The notes under the pieces are model-generated. The model saw only the letters and a program-made list of their open reading frames with translations, was not told where the DNA came from and ran no database searches. From positions 1 through 47,365 of the forward strand of contig JAIBBI010000025.1 of NCBI GenBank assembly GCA_019694755.1: a DNA stretch of 47,365 bases, written 5' to 3'. Shown here piece by piece: positions 2,577-9,122 of this stretch. Position 1 is the first letter of the stretch. Every line of letters begins with the position of its first letter. A program made the position numbers and the translations under genes. This stretch comes from Gemmataceae bacterium (lineage in GTDB: Bacteria > Planctomycetota > Planctomycetia > Gemmatales > Gemmataceae).

Positions 2577-3670
2577 CCGGCCCCGCGCAACCGATTCACG
2601 TCAATTTTCTGATCGACGGCCTGACGCGGGCCGGCACCGAGACGCAGCTGCTCGCACTCATCCGCTCGCTCGACCGCCGGCGCGTCCGCCCGACGCTCAC
2701 ACTCCTCGACGGTACAGATCCCGAGTCTCGCGAACTGCTGCCAAGCGACTGCCCGACACTCGTCCTCGGGCTCAAATCGATGAAGCGTCCCGCGGCCGTC
2801 GCCCGCGCCGCGAAGTCCCTGATCGGCTTCTGGAAATCGAACCACACCGATGTGGTGCAGACCTACTTCCTCGACAGCACCTATCTCGGCGTACCGCTGG
2901 CGCGCCTCGCGGGCATCCGGCGTGTGATCCGCGTTCGCAACAACCTCGGGCACTGGCTCACGCCGCGCCACCGCCGACTCGGCCGGATCGTCGGTCGCAT
3001 CGCCGACGTGACGCTGACCAATTCGGAGCCGGGCCGGGCGGCTTTGCTTGAGGCCGAGCGCGGCGACCGGCGTAAACTCGTCGTCCTCGAGAATGGCGTC
3101 GACTTCGATCGATTTGCCGCCCTGCCCCCGCCGCGCCGCGGGCAGCCGATGACGATCGGCGCGGTGGGCAATCTCCGCCATGTCAAAGGGATCGACGTGC
3201 TCGTCCGCGCCGCCGCGATGGTGCCGGGCGTCCGCTTCGTGGTCGCCGGCGACGGGGATCAGCGGCCGGAGTTGCAGCAATTGATCGGCCGGCTCGGATT
3301 GGCCGACCGGTTTCTGCTGCCGGGCAAGACCGGGGACATTCCCGGATTCCTGGCCGGAGTGGACGTGGCCGTGCTGCCGTCGCGGGCCGAGGGCATGGCC
3401 AACGCGCTGCTCGAGTTCATGGCCGCCGGCCGGCCCGTGGTGGCGACGGCCGTCGGCGCGAATCCGCAACTACTCGAAGACGGCCGGCACGGGTTGCTGG
3501 TGCCGCCAGACGACCCGGCCGCACTCGCGACGGCCTTGCGACAACTCGTCGATGATTCACAACTCGCCGACCGCATGGCCCGGTCGGCCCGCGGACACGT
3601 CGAGGCCCGCTACAGTCGGGTGGCCATGCGACTGCGCTTCGAAGATTTTTATTCCCGGCTTTGTGCCTGA
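2573..3670 (+). CDS. GT4-family glycosyltransferase, second of a coupled pair
   Basis: A 365-aa protein. The start is the ATG at 2573, which overlaps the previous stop. It begins with PIHVNFLIDGLTRAGTETQ, a typical glycosyltransferase subfamily 4 acceptor-domain loop. Its donor domain has IGAVGNLRHVKGIDVLV and EGMANALLEFMAAGRPVVAT, again an E-x7-E motif. It is related to its upstream neighbour but clearly divergent, so the two probably add successive sugars. The last 22 nt overlap the convergent ABC-2 permease gene on the other strand, so the two transcripts would be antisense at their ends. Confidence 0.87.
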   Translation: MTGPAQPIHVNFLIDGLTRAGTETQLLALIRSLDRRRVRPTLTLLDGTDPESRELLPSDCPTLVLGLKSMKRPAAVARAAKSLIGFWKSNHTDVVQTYFLDSTYLGVPLARLAGIRRVIRVRNNLGHWLTPRHRRLGRIVGRIADVTLTNSEPGRAALLEAERGDRRKLVVLENGVDFDRFAALPPPRRGQPMTIGAVGNLRHVKGIDVLVRAAAMVPGVRFVVAGDGDQRPELQQLIGRLGLADRFLLPGKTGDIPGFLAGVDVAVLPSRAEGMANALLEFMAAGRPVVATAVGANPQLLEDGRHGLLVPPDDPAALATALRQLVDDSQLADRMARSARGHVEARYSRVAMRLRFEDFYSRLCA

Positions 3671-5463
3671 GGCTGGTGGCTTTCCCGCCGCATCCATGCG
3701 AAGCGCATGTTCGTCTTCATTCGCATCGCCTCGCCGAGCAAGACGTAGAACGCGATTCCAACTGCTGTGCCGATGGCGAATATGACGAGAAGTTCCGTCT
3801 GGCTGCCCCACGGGTTGGCGGAACGGATGTTGGACACGGTCAGAAACCCGAGTGCCACGGGCGCCGAAAGCCCGGCTGTGAACATGGCAACACTCTCGAC
3901 CCCGCGACCACGGACATTGAGGACAACCGCGACAAAAATCGGAAGCAGCCACGGCAGGGCGGCCATCAATACGAGCAGAAGGGTAGTCGCCTGCTGAGCC
4001 TTCAGCTTGGGCGTCTCCACGATCGAGAAAAACATGCCGATCCGCACGACAGTAATCGTGTAGATCCAGTAGACAGGCACGACCAGCACGATGGCCAGGG
4101 GCGAGATCGCGCCGACAAGAATGCCGACTGCCCAATGCACCATCGTCCAGACGAGGAACCACCGTGCCGACCAGATCGCGCCCAGCGACTTCTGAAACAG
4201 GATTTCGCGGTTCGAGAGGTCCGTCAGGCAAAGCTCGTCGAATGTCTTCTGCCGGCGCTCGCGGCTGATCATCGAGGCCGCACTGTTGGCGATGTGGAGC
4301 AGCGATGCGGCCACGCCGATGCTGCCGAACCCGCGGACGATCTCGTGGACTTCCCGGGCCAGCCTCCCGCGGGTGATTCCCTCGTAAATTGCGATTGCGA
4401 GCGGCGCGAAGCTGGCAAGGTAGGCCAGCCATTTGATGCACTTGCCGAGCAGCCGCGGTGTCGGCCGACCGACGGCCGTCTTCGTCTCGCGCCAGTACAC
4501 GGGGAACCGCTGGCTGACGGCCGCGCGCCCCCGGCCCAACACCGCACCGAAGCTGCGCGTAGCCTTGGCGGCCGCCCGGTCGGCCTGGCGCGAAAGCGTC
4601 CGCCGAAGACGAGTCGCTGCCCAGGTTCCCGTGACCACGGCGACGATGACGTGAAACCCAACGAACCGCCCGAGCAGCGGGTACAGGATGTCGTCGATCG
4701 GCGTGTTGCGGGCGAGCCGGCTGAACAGGGTGGACATACCCCAGAACAGGTTGCCGGAATTGCACCAGTCCAGCACCTGGCCGAAGGAGACGACGCTGCT
4801 CCCCCACCACCCGAGGATCACCATGCCGTACCGCGGCTGGAGCATGGCCGTGACAAACGGCAGCACGAAGGCGTAGGCGGCAATGATCCCGACGGTCCGC
4901 CCGGTGGCAATCTTCACGTTGGGCGCGGCGATACTGATGGCCGCCCCGATGCCCGCCGCGCTGAGGACCGAGGCGGCCGTCGCGGCAAACGCGCAAATGA
5001 CGAGGATCGGGTCGACGCCGCCCATCACCTGCATGATGGCGAGCACCGGAAGCCCGGCCAGCAGAACCATGAACACCTGGGCGACCCGCGCGGCCAGCTT
5101 ACCCAGAACGATCTCACGGTCGCGCAGCACTGTCGTGAGCAGGAACGGCAGTGTCGCCCGCTCCTTTTCTTCCGCGAGGATGGCCGGCGTGGCCGTCGCC
5201 GCGGCAAACGTGCCTACGATGAATTGCAATATCGCGAACACCGAGAAGAACACCGAGCCGAACGTCGCGATATCCTTGGGGTTCACCGACGACATGAACA
5301 GGAAGTCGGAGACGCTCTCCGGCCCGTGCGGGAACAGGCTGAGGTACACGAATCCGAGCATCACGAGCAGGACGAGCACGTAGCCACATCGCCCGGCAGT
5401 CATCCGCTGCCGGCGGACGATCCGCGTCAGCTCGAACAGGAACAGCGGGCCGAACGGATTCAC
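3649..5463 (-). CDS. ABC-2-type transporter permease, double-module, paralogue of the upstream gene
   Basis: A 604-aa polytopic membrane protein starting at a GTG (VNPFGPLFLFELTRIVRR) that overlaps the stop of the upstream gene (GTGA). The first half holds the ABC-2 signature EEKERATLPFLLTTVLRDREIVLGK near residues 100-125. The second half holds a degenerate copy, RERRQKTFDELCLTDLSNREI, near residue 410. Roughly a dozen hydrophobic segments are seen. Permeases of this class move drugs, lipids or polysaccharides, or help assemble surface structures, and need a separate ATPase, which is not encoded here. Its overlap and clear similarity to the upstream permease suggest that the two proteins form a heterodimer. 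The substrate is unknown. Confidence 0.75.
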   Translation of the reverse strand: MNPFGPLFLFELTRIVRRQRMTAGRCGYVLVLLVMLGFVYLSLFPHGPESVSDFLFMSSVNPKDIATFGSVFFSVFAILQFIVGTFAAATATPAILAEEKERATLPFLLTTVLRDREIVLGKLAARVAQVFMVLLAGLPVLAIMQVMGGVDPILVICAFAATAASVLSAAGIGAAISIAAPNVKIATGRTVGIIAAYAFVLPFVTAMLQPRYGMVILGWWGSSVVSFGQVLDWCNSGNLFWGMSTLFSRLARNTPIDDILYPLLGRFVGFHVIVAVVTGTWAATRLRRTLSRQADRAAAKATRSFGAVLGRGRAAVSQRFPVYWRETKTAVGRPTPRLLGKCIKWLAYLASFAPLAIAIYEGITRGRLAREVHEIVRGFGSIGVAASLLHIANSAASMISRERRQKTFDELCLTDLSNREILFQKSLGAIWSARWFLVWTMVHWAVGILVGAISPLAIVLVVPVYWIYTITVVRIGMFFSIVETPKLKAQQATTLLLVLMAALPWLLPIFVAVVLNVRGRGVESVAMFTAGLSAPVALGFLTVSNIRSANPWGSQTELLVIFAIGTAVGIAFYVLLGEAMRMKTNMRFAWMRRESHQPQAQSRE

Positions 5464-7343
5464 CGGGCTCCCTCCGGCGCGACCCGCGGCTCGAGGGGCA
5501 GCCCGCGATTGGTCATCTCGGCAAACCGGTCGAACGTGATCAGCCAGACGATCAGGGCCAATACCGCCCAGCACAGGCAGCCGGCCGACCCCGTCAGGAT
5601 GTAGTTGATCTTCATCTCGCGAATGAAAGCGGGGGTGTCGTGGGCCGCAAAGGGAATCATGTAAAACATTGCCGGCGGAGTCGCGCCTACCTGGAACGCG
5701 AGCACGTTTTCGATCAGCGGGAAGCTCCCGGTGAACCCCGCCGGGATGTAGCAGCACATGCCGCCCACGCACCAATGACCGCCCAATCCGAACAGGAGCG
5801 CGGCCAGCGTGCCCAGGAGAGCACGCAACGTGGTCGACGCAAACACCGAAAGCGCGACACCGGTGACGCCGGCCGCCAGCGCGGGCGGAGCGAACGCGAC
5901 GGCGAAGGCCAGCGGCCCCCAGGGCGAGACGCTGCCGGTGACCATGCCGATCACCCATGCCAGCGAGAGCCAGTAGCCGAGTACGCGGACGCTGAGCATC
6001 GCCCCCCACACTTTGGGTGCGAGGATCTCGAAGGCCGAGAGCGGCGTGGTCAGCAGGCTGATGAGCGTGTCGCGGTCGCGCTCGGAGCCGATGGCCCCCG
6101 CAGCCCGCACGCCGATCCCGACGATCATCGCCGTGCCGTAGAGCACGCTGAGCGCGACGATCCAACCCGCCGTGAACTCCTGGAACTCGCGCCAGCTCAT
6201 ACGCCCCGCCGTTTCGGTCACGAAGAAGTAGACGGCCAGGATCATCGGCAGGAAACTGAGGACGACGAGCAGGATCATCCCGACCTGGCCGAACACGCCA
6301 AGCCGGAACGACCGCTCGATCCACATTTCCTTCCACAGAATGGGCCGACTGCCGGACACTGCCGGCCGGCGGCGGAACCGCGGCACGTTCTTCCGTTTGC
6401 GCGGCGCACTACCCGCCTGTCGGAGTGCAATCGCCCGGACCTTCCAGACCGCATATCCCAGCCCGGCCAGAAAGACGAAGAGGTGAAACGATGCGTACTT
6501 CGCCAGAAGCTCCAGCAAGGCTTCGCCGCGTGCCCCGACCCCGGAGATGATCTGGGTAATCTCGGAGATCACCCAGACCGGATCGCCCCAGCGGATGACC
6601 TTCATTACTGGTTCCATCGCAATGACGGCGCGGGCGATGGCGACCTCACGAAAGTTGGCCGCGACATTCTCGGCGAACCAGCAGAACCACGACAGGAACA
6701 GGTACGCGACGGAGATCAGGAACGTGACGACGACCGCTTCGCGGACGCGCCGACGCTGGACCGACTGAACGAGGCTGATGCCGACCAGGCCGAACATGGT
6801 GCAGGCCGTCGCGGCAAACGTCATCAGGAGGATCGCGGGATCAATGCCGCCGAACATCTGGATGATGCTGAGCACGGGCAGACCGGTGAGCAGGAACATG
6901 ATCAGATTCCCGATCCGGGCTGCCACCTTGCCGAAGATGATTTCGCGGTTGGCGAGGTCGGTCGCGAGGATGAAGTCGATCGTCCGCCGTTCCTTGTCCT
7001 CGGCCACGCAACCCGCGACGTAGCCGGGCGTGAGCAGGCACACCGCGCCGAATTGCACGATGGCGAAGGCGTAAAAGAAGATCTCCGCGAGGTACGACAT
7101 CGCGCGCGGGTCGTCGGCCATGCGGTTGCTTTCCGACCGCCAGATGGTCCAGACCCAGAGCAGAAGCAGAAACAGCGCGAGCGCGTAGACGGCGCGGAAG
7201 GCGAAGTACCGGCCGCGGCGGCCGGACCGCACCATCTCGAAGAACAGCACGGGGCCGAACAGGCGGAGGCTGCCCCCTGTCATCAGCTCCAGGCCGACAA
7301 CGACGGCGATCAGCGCGGCGACAATCCCGAAGGTCGCGATCAT
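5460..7343 (-). CDS. ABC-2-type transporter permease, double-module
   Basis: A 627-aa polytopic membrane protein. The N-terminal module has LFGPVLFFEMVRSGRRGRY and the signature EDKERRTIDFILATDLANRE with GKVAAR (about residues 110-140). A second module begins near residue 330 and repeats the motif as ERDRDTLISLLTTPLSAFEI (about residue 415). Each half therefore looks like one ABC-2 unit, meaning an internal duplication. The start is the ATG at 7343; an internal MTGGSLRLFGPVLFFEM start is possible. It is translationally coupled to the downstream paralogue. The substrate-binding lipoprotein gene just upstream ends 38 nt away, but solute-binding proteins do not normally partner with ABC-2 exporters, so a shared function is uncertain. 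Confidence 0.75.
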   Translation of the reverse strand: MIATFGIVAALIAVVVGLELMTGGSLRLFGPVLFFEMVRSGRRGRYFAFRAVYALALFLLLLWVWTIWRSESNRMADDPRAMSYLAEIFFYAFAIVQFGAVCLLTPGYVAGCVAEDKERRTIDFILATDLANREIIFGKVAARIGNLIMFLLTGLPVLSIIQMFGGIDPAILLMTFAATACTMFGLVGISLVQSVQRRRVREAVVVTFLISVAYLFLSWFCWFAENVAANFREVAIARAVIAMEPVMKVIRWGDPVWVISEITQIISGVGARGEALLELLAKYASFHLFVFLAGLGYAVWKVRAIALRQAGSAPRKRKNVPRFRRRPAVSGSRPILWKEMWIERSFRLGVFGQVGMILLVVLSFLPMILAVYFFVTETAGRMSWREFQEFTAGWIVALSVLYGTAMIVGIGVRAAGAIGSERDRDTLISLLTTPLSAFEILAPKVWGAMLSVRVLGYWLSLAWVIGMVTGSVSPWGPLAFAVAFAPPALAAGVTGVALSVFASTTLRALLGTLAALLFGLGGHWCVGGMCCYIPAGFTGSFPLIENVLAFQVGATPPAMFYMIPFAAHDTPAFIREMKINYILTGSAGCLCWAVLALIVWLITFDRFAEMTNRGLPLEPRVAPEGAR

Positions 7344-7381: not shown

Positions 7382-8407
7382 CTAGCGGGCAAATTCGCCG
7401 CGCAGGAATGCCAGTACTTCGTCCCACAGGGCGGCGGCTTTCGTGAAATCGACCTGCATCCGCGCGGCCTCGCGGGCCGGGGCCAGCGCGGCGGGCAGCT
7501 CCGCCTGCACCTTCGGATTCAGAGGGATCTGATACCCGCCGCCGGTCGCGAGCCGGCGCTCGACCTCTGGCGAGAGCAGGAAGTCGATGAGTCGCCGACC
7601 GGCGGCCGGGTTCGGCCCGCCACGAACCAAAGCGACCGTGTTCGGGATGAAGAGCGTGCCCATGCGCGGGTGCTCGGGCGTCCCCCCGGCCGAGTCGGGG
7701 AACAAGATCGCCACGGGTTTTCCCGCGAGGACTTCCTCGATGGCGTCGTCGGTGTCCGTGAGCCCGATGGCGGCGTCTCCCCGGCCGACCGCCTCCGCAA
7801 CCTGTTTGTTGCCGGGGTAGATCTTCACGCCGTTGTTCTTCAGCGCGCGGTAGAAGTTTTTTGCGGGTTCAACGCCGAGGACTTCGGCGAGACACACGGC
7901 CTGCGTCGCGGTCGTGCCGTGGAGCGGCTTGGCCATGGCGATCTTTCCGGTCCAGCGCGGGGATGCCAGGTCGAGCAAGCGCGTCGGCAGGTCGGCCCCG
8001 CGGATCAGGTTCTTGTTGGCGATGAGCACGCGGGCCCGCGCGCCGAACGCCGTCCACGTCTTGTCGGGCGCCTTCGCGTGGTCCGGATAGTCGGCCGCCG
8101 ACGGGCTGGCGTACGACTCCAGCACACCCATTTTCGCGAGCATCAGCGTCGTCAGGATTTCGTTGTTCCAGTGGACGTCGCACCGGGGCCGGGCGACTTC
8201 GAGTTGCAACTCGCGGAACAGCCCGACCGACTTGTTCGCCTCGGTGTCGTATTTGGCATCGACGGTGACGTGGGAGGCCTTCTCGAAGCCCGAGAGAATC
8301 CCCTCGGCGAACGGCCGATCCTGGGCGCAATAAAGGACAAGTCGCTCCGCGGGCCGGCCACACCCGAGCGACAGGAGAACCAGACAGGCCGCGGCGACGA
8401 TGCGCAT
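7382..8407 (-). CDS. Extracellular solute-binding lipoprotein, iron(III)/AfuA-like
   Basis: A 341-aa protein with a lipoprotein signal (MRIVAAACLVLLSLGC, lipobox LSLGC). The mature part resembles the periplasmic Fe(III)/spermidine-type binding proteins: VLYCAQDRPFAEGILSGFEK at the first strand, DVHWNNEILTTLMLAKMGVLE, and GDAAIGLTDTDDAIE. A family member would bind a metal or small anion and pass it to a membrane permease. The ATG at 8407 has a GGAG about 8 nt upstream and places the signal peptide correctly; an ATG at 8431 is the alternative. No matching inner-membrane permease or ATPase is near. Confidence 0.82.
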   Translation of the reverse strand: MRIVAAACLVLLSLGCGRPAERLVLYCAQDRPFAEGILSGFEKASHVTVDAKYDTEANKSVGLFRELQLEVARPRCDVHWNNEILTTLMLAKMGVLESYASPSAADYPDHAKAPDKTWTAFGARARVLIANKNLIRGADLPTRLLDLASPRWTGKIAMAKPLHGTTATQAVCLAEVLGVEPAKNFYRALKNNGVKIYPGNKQVAEAVGRGDAAIGLTDTDDAIEEVLAGKPVAILFPDSAGGTPEHPRMGTLFIPNTVALVRGGPNPAAGRRLIDFLLSPEVERRLATGGGYQIPLNPKVQAELPAALAPAREAARMQVDFTKAAALWDEVLAFLRGEFAR

Positions 8408-8501
8408 GGTTGTCTCCACCTTCCGCACCATGATACAGCCGGCCGGGCCGACCGCTTGACCCGTCTCGAACACTGAAACGGGGAAAAGAAAAAGAAAGCA
8501 C

Positions 8502-8530
8502 TTGACCTGGCCACTGGACAGTGGCATTAG
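8502..8530 (+). promoter_or_regulatory. Candidate promoter of the 8580 gene with a palindrome in its spacer
   Basis: TTGACC at 8502-8507 is followed after 17 nt by a weak -10 CATTAG. The spacer is filled by the inverted repeat at 8510-8525. The -35 is good and the -10 is poor, as in promoters that need or are blocked by a regulator. Confidence 0.35.
8510..8525. promoter_or_regulatory. Operator-like palindrome in a divergent intergenic region
   Basis: GCCACTG-GA-CAGTGGC is a perfect 7-bp inverted repeat with a 2-nt centre. It lies between the divergent lipoprotein gene (8407) and the 8580 gene. Its place over the candidate promoter spacer suggests a binding site for a dimeric repressor. The regulator is not identified. 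Confidence 0.45.
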
Positions 8531-8579
8531 TACATTGTCGGGTTGGCTTTTGCCGCCTCTCTGCGGGAGGGCTTGAGTC

Positions 8580-9122
8580 ATGATGTGGGAACCACCTCCG
8601 GAACATCCGCTCCGCCGGCTTTTCGCCGGCTACACGGAATTCACCTTTCAGAACACCTTCGGCGTCGCCGACCCGCCGCTCATCGACTACCTGAGCGGCC
8701 TGCTGTCGCGCTACGTCACGTCGGACGCGGCCGTGCGACTCAAAGACGCCACGGGCCGGCAACTCGACAATGTCGCCGAGCTGGTCGCCGAGGTGGCGGA
8801 CCTACCCCAAGGGCGCACGGCCTGCGAGCTGCACCGGCAGATCGGCGACTTCGCGCTGTTCTGGACCGGGGTGTACCCCGAGTGGTTTCACAAGATGCGG
8901 TCGCGAGTGCAGATCGACTACTTCGTCGATTACTGCCGGCAGGGCAAGCGGTCGTATTACCTTGCCAGCCAGCTCGAAACGTCTGACCACGAACAGGAGG
9001 CGGCGGTGCTCCGCCGGCTCAGCGATCAATTCGAAATGTGTGCATTCGGCCTGACCAAGGTCCGCGAGGAGTGGGAGAAAGACCGCACCGAGCCGACCGG
9101 CCGACTGATTGGCGTCGCCTGA
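8580..9122 (+). CDS. Conserved hypothetical protein, 180 aa
   Basis: I do not recognise a named family. The protein is acidic to neutral and soluble, without signal peptide or membrane segment. Notable stretches are FAGYTEFTFQNTFGVADPPLIDYL at the start, QGRTACELHRQIGDFALFWTGVYPEW in the middle and SYYLASQLETSDHEQEAAVLRRLSDQFE near the end; the whole looks mostly alpha-helical. The start at 8580 is supported by GGGAGG at 8565-8570 with a 9-nt spacing. It is a single-gene unit, bounded by its own candidate promoter and by a very strong hairpin just after the stop. Both suggest a real, separately regulated gene. Confidence 0.75.
   Translation: MMWEPPPEHPLRRLFAGYTEFTFQNTFGVADPPLIDYLSGLLSRYVTSDAAVRLKDATGRQLDNVAELVAEVADLPQGRTACELHRQIGDFALFWTGVYPEWFHKMRSRVQIDYFVDYCRQGKRSYYLASQLETSDHEQEAAVLRRLSDQFEMCAFGLTKVREEWEKDRTEPTGRLIGVA

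Follow-up and report, generated by a model that had tools for sequence, protein, structure and literature searches.

How two double-length membrane proteins of the ABC-2 type are energised when no ATPase is encoded beside them is the question raised by the stretch of DNA analysed here (the window), the 47,365-nucleotide contig JAIBBI010000025.1 (C29 in our numbering) from the 335-contig genome of a Gemmataceae bacterium (GCA_019694755.1; G000). The original prediction of two coupled permease genes at 3649-7343 was borne out in its coordinates and its reading, with both genes on the minus strand. Gene A (5460..7343) encodes a double-length ABC-2 permease of 627 amino acids with two 6-helix units, and gene B (3649..5463), which has a GTG start, encodes a paralogous double-length permease of 604 amino acids that is 30% identical to A over A 23-558. 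The GTGA overlap between the genes was likewise found, on the minus strand at 5460..5463, where the TGA stop of A meets the GTG start of B, suggesting that the two are translationally coupled. A longer ORF of 895 amino acids consists of B plus an open-frame extension that reaches the region of A.

With PF12679 (ABC2_membrane_2) B passes the curated cut-off (34.6 vs 27.2) and A falls narrowly below it (26.6), while both match GldF and SagH weakly and far under the curated cut-offs, the GldF score being 16.8 bits for A and 12.7 for B with a cut-off of 288.5. A single-sequence search with A (phmmer) found no match in the PDB at E <= 1, and a first scan of the genome contigs with A alone as query gave no match. 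The genome has five matches of the A/B permease family, including one that lies at the end of a contig. Upstream of A on the same strand lies a gene for a lipoprotein-like solute-binding protein (7382-8581, minus; SBP_bac_6, PhnS-like), which ends 38 bases before A and may be co-transcribed with it. Binding proteins of the SBP_bac_6 type normally partner importers and not ABC-2 permeases.

Each of A and B contains two homologous ABC-2 units. In A the N-terminal unit occupies residues 27-311 (6411..7265, minus) and the C-terminal unit residues 330-612 (5508..6356, minus), the latter placed by profile comparison and the model; in B the units occupy residues 1-310 (4534..5463, minus) and 317-596 (3676..4515, minus), with ABCG25 and Wzm aligning to residues 315-596. 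PF12679 matches each protein twice over overlapping model positions, at profile positions 87-251 and 65-193 in A and 58-204 and 72-200 in B, the weak pieces among these double matches having E-values of 0.002-0.02. Profile comparison of the two halves gave a probability of 99.4 and a score of 111.6 over 298 columns for A, and 99.57 and 123.9 over 277 columns for B. Reversed C-terminal halves scored about 5 and the best of 20 block-shuffled C-terminal halves 15.0 (A) and 44.2 (B), the latter value making the control for B less clean than that for A. The internal duplication is thus seen in the double profile matches, the profile comparison and the models, and structure prediction, used as the test for one unit per protein, returned two units in each. 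Identity is 29% between the N-terminal units of A and B, 19% between their C-terminal units and 15% between the two units of A; with the last below the other two, the internal duplication predates the one that produced A and B.

The sequence motif on which the duplication was originally proposed occurs twice per protein, and its four copies, one of them degenerate, were all located, each at the coupling helix of its unit and all on the minus strand. In A these are residues 115-139 (6927..7001; EDKERRTIDFILATDLANREIIFGK) and 421-444 (6012..6083; ERDRDTLISLLTTPLSAFEILAPK), the second being without R-E-I, and in B residues 98-122 (5098..5172; EEKERATLPFLLTTVLRDREIVLGK) and 402-425 (4189..4260; ERRQKTFDELCLTDLSNREILFQK), the second being the degenerate copy, with one extra residue between the charged cluster and the T.

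Models built with 38 related sequences for A and 30 for B (pLDDT 86.3 and pTM 0.85 for A; 85.3 and 0.82 for B) have two 6-helix units per chain. Each half of A is modelled as an interface helix, TM1, TM2, a broken pair of short helices and TM3 to TM6, with the broken pair (111-127 and 417-432) falling exactly on the motif, which on this basis is predicted to be the coupling-helix loop. The top Foldseek matches were a mycobacterial efflux pump and NosY, with weak E-values (2.4e-3 at best). The mycobacterial pump (8k1m-8k1p, which we take to be Rv1217c/Rv1218c) aligned to A over 469 residues (Z 17.5, rmsd 5.0) and to B over 462 residues (Z 17.5, rmsd 4.4), and NosY to the N-terminal units of A (Z 18.7 over 243 residues) and B (Z 19.2 over 245 residues), on a scale where unrelated helical bundles may score 13-14. 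An ABC exporter requires two ABC-2 units and, going by the models, each of A and B would supply the complete membrane pair of an exporter.

In keeping with the original prediction that the missing ATPase is encoded elsewhere, no ABC ATPase was found in the window, the 51 PF00005 matches of the genome all lying on other contigs. No ABC ATPase ORF was present in 36 of 41 loci holding members of the permease family, 40 of these being taken from genomes, the present one included, and the other being the window. In a second set of loci found by name, which has several contigs in common with the first, 40 of 41 held a permease-family ORF and 36 of these 40 had no ATPase; of the four with an ATPase, two had a two-domain protein encoded on the opposite strand, one had an MlaF-like protein, and in one the ATPase lay about 6 kb off. 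G001, a closed genome of one contig, has four family permeases, and none of them comes nearer than about 16 kb to a PF00005 match. Relatives of A are found as single genes and also as tandem pairs or triplets. The neighbours of the permeases in the order to which the window belongs had no common function (pterin-type enzymes, kinases, DUF1501 and sugar enzymes among them). One gene family occurs no more than two genes after the permease or permeases in eight of 41 loci (L043, L044, L045, L046, L051, L053, L068 and L079), the two members tested being DUF6513/pterin-binding proteins, and a second follows the permeases in five loci, with two tested members being chorismate-binding enzymes.

Since the order of the window gave no hint of a partner, loci from further families were examined, 20 of which were drawn from a search of the phylum. 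An ABC ATPase ORF was present in nine of the 20, and in six (four genomes of family f9, together with G121 and G066) it lay directly before the permease on the same strand, overlapping it by 1-4 bases where the starts were clear. These six loci represent three families outside the class of the window. When the six linked ATPases were compared with 42 ATPases of the Gemmataceae genome, the one on contig C169 was the best match each time (294-320 bits, the next scoring 168-185), and in a tree of 39 ATPases the six linked proteins and 11 of C169 type formed one group (support 100/99), with 16 other ATPases of the genome and the flagged long branches falling outside it. Comparison with distant relatives that have kept the linkage can thus reveal the partner of genes that have become separated. 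In two of the remaining three loci a C92-type ATPase gene was oriented divergently from that of the permease, and in the third an LptB-like ATPase lay beside it. Within the class, at least three more same-strand ATPase-permease neighbours within 20 kb (gaps of 33, 1950 and 2837 bases) were seen among 44 permease and 32 ATPase matches, a part of all, and one of them, in G051, involves the C169 orthologue itself (73% identity). In one f9 locus (L396) the ATPase-permease pair is followed by genes for a LemA protein and an M48 peptidase, which perhaps hint at a role in envelope stress.

Comparison with the distant relatives singled out a GldA-like protein (G000:C169:811-1776), the only ATPase of this type in the genome at E <= 1e-60, as the candidate partner. 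At E <= 1e-60, ATPases of C169 type are present in 58 of 59 relatives (in 55 at E <= 1e-100), and the family permease is present in 58 of 59 at E <= 1e-15, among them all 48 good-quality genomes. In 20 C169-type loci (L414-L433) chosen among the 58 genomes having one, a gene for an auxiliary membrane protein lies directly before the ATPase in every case (split into two ORFs in L427), encoding roughly 750-890 amino acids with two to four predicted membrane helices, and no family permease was found in the operon of the ATPase in any of the 20. L430 has a weaker relative of the permease close by on the opposite strand, and an ORF of ATPase size where a second ATPase match falls. Often a MazG-like gene of about 105 amino acids and a TPR/peptidase-MA gene of about 900 amino acids are found further upstream of the auxiliary gene, the TPR/peptidase-MA gene standing first in the run; these Pfam assignments come from L414 and L416 only.

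Contig C169 itself starts inside the auxiliary gene, the C-terminal part of which is retained (37%, E 1e-47). In two of the six linked loci of distant relatives, those of G066 and G121, the gene before the ATPase is homologous to this auxiliary gene; a weak match to DUF4350 occurs in G066 and in G046, a genome of family f5. ATPase and permease, linked in the distant loci and each unlinked here, are thus complementary orphans. In a sample of 148 genomes across the phylum (permease at E <= 1e-40, ATPase at E <= 1e-70) the ATPase was present in all 25 permease-positive genomes compared with 44 of the 123 others (Fisher p 3e-10, ignoring descent). An A-type permease is present in 29 relatives, and a C169 orthologue was found at E <= 1e-100 in 26 of these; about two misses are expected by completeness and, of the three genomes without it (G029, G042 and G043), G042 and G043 share one family. 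Within the class C169-type ATPases are so widespread that their presence tells little.

The history of the permeases bears on whether A and B have kept this partner. In a quick tree of 73 permeases, with SH-aLRT support only, A and B belong to a radiation whose 46 members all come from the class of the window, and the ATPase-linked permeases fall in the other large branch (support 93) together with the permease on contig C145 of the same genome and similar proteins of other orders. On this tree, A and B appear to be paralogues of the ATPase-linked type that arose later. With their radiation separate from the ATPase-linked branch, the C145 permease could be the true partner of the C169 ATPase and A and B could have changed partners, which makes their retention of this ATPase the point at which the argument is weakest. 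Genes for CNNM/CorC-type proteins follow the C145-type permease in several families of the class (three proteins tested, from L394 and L407), and genes of similar size follow it in L395, L406, L408-L410 and L413.

Several other accounts of the missing ATPase have been weighed. Orphan ABC-2-like proteins of the YhgE/Pip and EsaA kind are regarded as scaffolds or channels, and A and B could likewise function free of any ATPase, in keeping with the absence of ATPases in cis from almost all loci of the order and with the multiplication and divergence of the permease copies. Against this, relatives are co-encoded with an ATPase, and the coupling-helix stretches, whose conservation would be expected mainly for contact with an ATPase, are the most conserved across the members from this genome and the ATPase-linked ones, so that a function free of ATPase is improbable. 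In an alignment of four permeases of the genome with six ATPase-linked ones, the best and second-best conserved 25-residue stretches were A 115-139 and A 420-444, the two coupling-helix loops, which rank first and third with the genome's own permeases alone and likewise with all 73 proteins. The suggestion that A and B make one heterodimer with four ABC-2 units and four coupling helices, as in the original prediction, draws on the 4-base overlap, which suggests coupled synthesis, and on the tandem pairs or triplets among relatives. We give it very little credence, in that either chain by itself aligns over its full length with a pump that has both units in a single chain and relatives of A also occur singly; with both units already in each chain, a four-unit heterodimer is unnecessary. 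Nor is the duplicated architecture unusual. It is already known, the relevant passages of the literature describing one-chain double ABC-2 proteins for EcsAB, AlbCD, YthPQ, SkfEF and Rv1217c (see below). The loss of a dedicated ATPase gene from the 335-contig assembly, which is fragmented and 97% complete, is scarcely conceivable given that the four family permeases of single-contig G001 are likewise remote from PF00005 matches and that the absence of a cis ATPase recurs across genera.

A further possibility, which we consider unlikely, is that A and B are driven by another ABC ATPase, or by several recruited promiscuously, such as the NatA-like C254, C138, C92 or others of the DrrA class. The genome encodes several DrrA-class ATPases, and C254 has no permease neighbour there; two related genomes have a C92-type ATPase gene oriented divergently from that of a family permease, and in G039 an A-B-like pair lies in a gene run headed by an ATPase about 5.7 kb away. 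However, in other families C254-type ATPases precede an ABC-2 permease of their own, in many relatives C138-type ATPases are followed by a six-helix permease, and C92-type ATPases are followed by membrane genes of their own. Among the 29 A-positive genomes, C138-type orthologues (E <= 1e-60) occur in 19 and C254-type orthologues in 20-21, compared with 26 for the C169 type (E <= 1e-100). C254, suspected as an orphan in its own genome, was rejected as first-choice partner when its orthologues were found to precede another permease elsewhere, as was C138 with its many orthologues followed by their own six-helix permease. No C254-type ATPase was found in closed G001, which has four family permeases, among the 46 of 73 first-look candidates that were scored. 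The same genome keeps several leftover DrrA-class ATPases with no membrane neighbour detected in 40 G001 regions for which ORF calls are incomplete. In three f4 loci (L216, L217 and L218) the C254-type ATPase precedes an ABC-2 protein with an apparent CPBP region, as we take it to be, and this protein was absent beside the C254-type ATPase in the Gemmataceae genome and the fetched relatives of its family; C254 is possibly part of another split ABC system.

The duplication, the predicted fold, the lack of an ATPase in cis, the linkage in cis in distant relatives and the ATPase clade were all computed, and the reading that we favour is that A and B are probably the membrane domains of type V exporters driven in trans by the C169 ATPase, which is probably common to several permeases. 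We infer the physical pairing, the sharing of one ATPase, the direction of transport and the kind of substrate. On this reading, the permeases would constitute a planctomycete family that has expanded in the order of the window, with its genes separated from that of their ATPase. A dimer of the C169-type ATPase would dock on the two coupling helices of A, or on those of B, and would probably serve other orphan permeases in turn. The ATP-bound dimer would close and push the coupling helices of A or B such that a putative envelope component is moved outward, by export or extrusion. The auxiliary protein may act on the periplasmic face of the membrane, the role proposed for GldG.

A broader proposal, which we put forward tentatively and hold with somewhat less than even confidence, is that of a modular exporter throughout the class of the window, in which one near-universal permease-free ATPase with its auxiliary subunit powers in trans some 1-9 dispersed, independently evolving double-length ABC-2 permeases, A and B included. 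Such a system, if real, would be the exporter counterpart of the importers that share an ATPase. The genes for exporter ATPases usually adjoin those of their permeases, which makes orphan permeases hard to annotate. If the C169-type ATPase is a common motor, a whole family of Gemmataceae membrane proteins that have had no place could be assigned both a partner and an auxiliary subunit, and the sharing of motors, known for importers, would be extended to type V exporters. What is new here is a conserved permease family separated from a conserved and identifiable ATPase; in the open-access papers searched, no description of the A/B permease family or of a shared exporter ATPase in planctomycetes was recognised.

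Among known systems, the mycobacterial pump of 8k1m-8k1p is alike in having both ABC-2 units in one chain, in the same order and arrangement as in A and B, the likeness being one of structure with no sequence match of A. That pump comes with its own ATPase, unlike A and B, which have none in cis. NosY of the NosDFY system has the fold of the N-terminal units of A and B but carries a single unit per chain and functions as a homodimer. Similarity to the Gld system (GldA, GldF and GldG) is seen in the C169 ATPase, whose top NCBIfam match is GldA at 239.6 bits, far below the curated cut-off of 402.6; the A/B permeases differ in being double-length and unlinked. In the passages of the sources concerned, Rv1217c is a double-length ABC-2 permease in one chain (PMC7761784) and the type V membrane domain is fused in a single polypeptide in the Bacillus complexes EcsAB, AlbCD, YthPQ and SkfEF (PMC11466899). 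The latter are named there together with their ATPase and are likened to A and B by architecture, not sequence. Sharing of a motor is described, in the relevant sections of the papers, for MsmK (PMC4519317) and MceG (PMC9947336), each a single ATPase common to several permease sets encoded elsewhere; loss of MceG is reported to bring down its permeases together. The systems of MsmK and MceG are importers of other folds, while A and B are exporter-type permeases for which sharing is proposed, and the same layout, several permeases together with one unlinked conserved ATPase, is present in the Gemmataceae genome.
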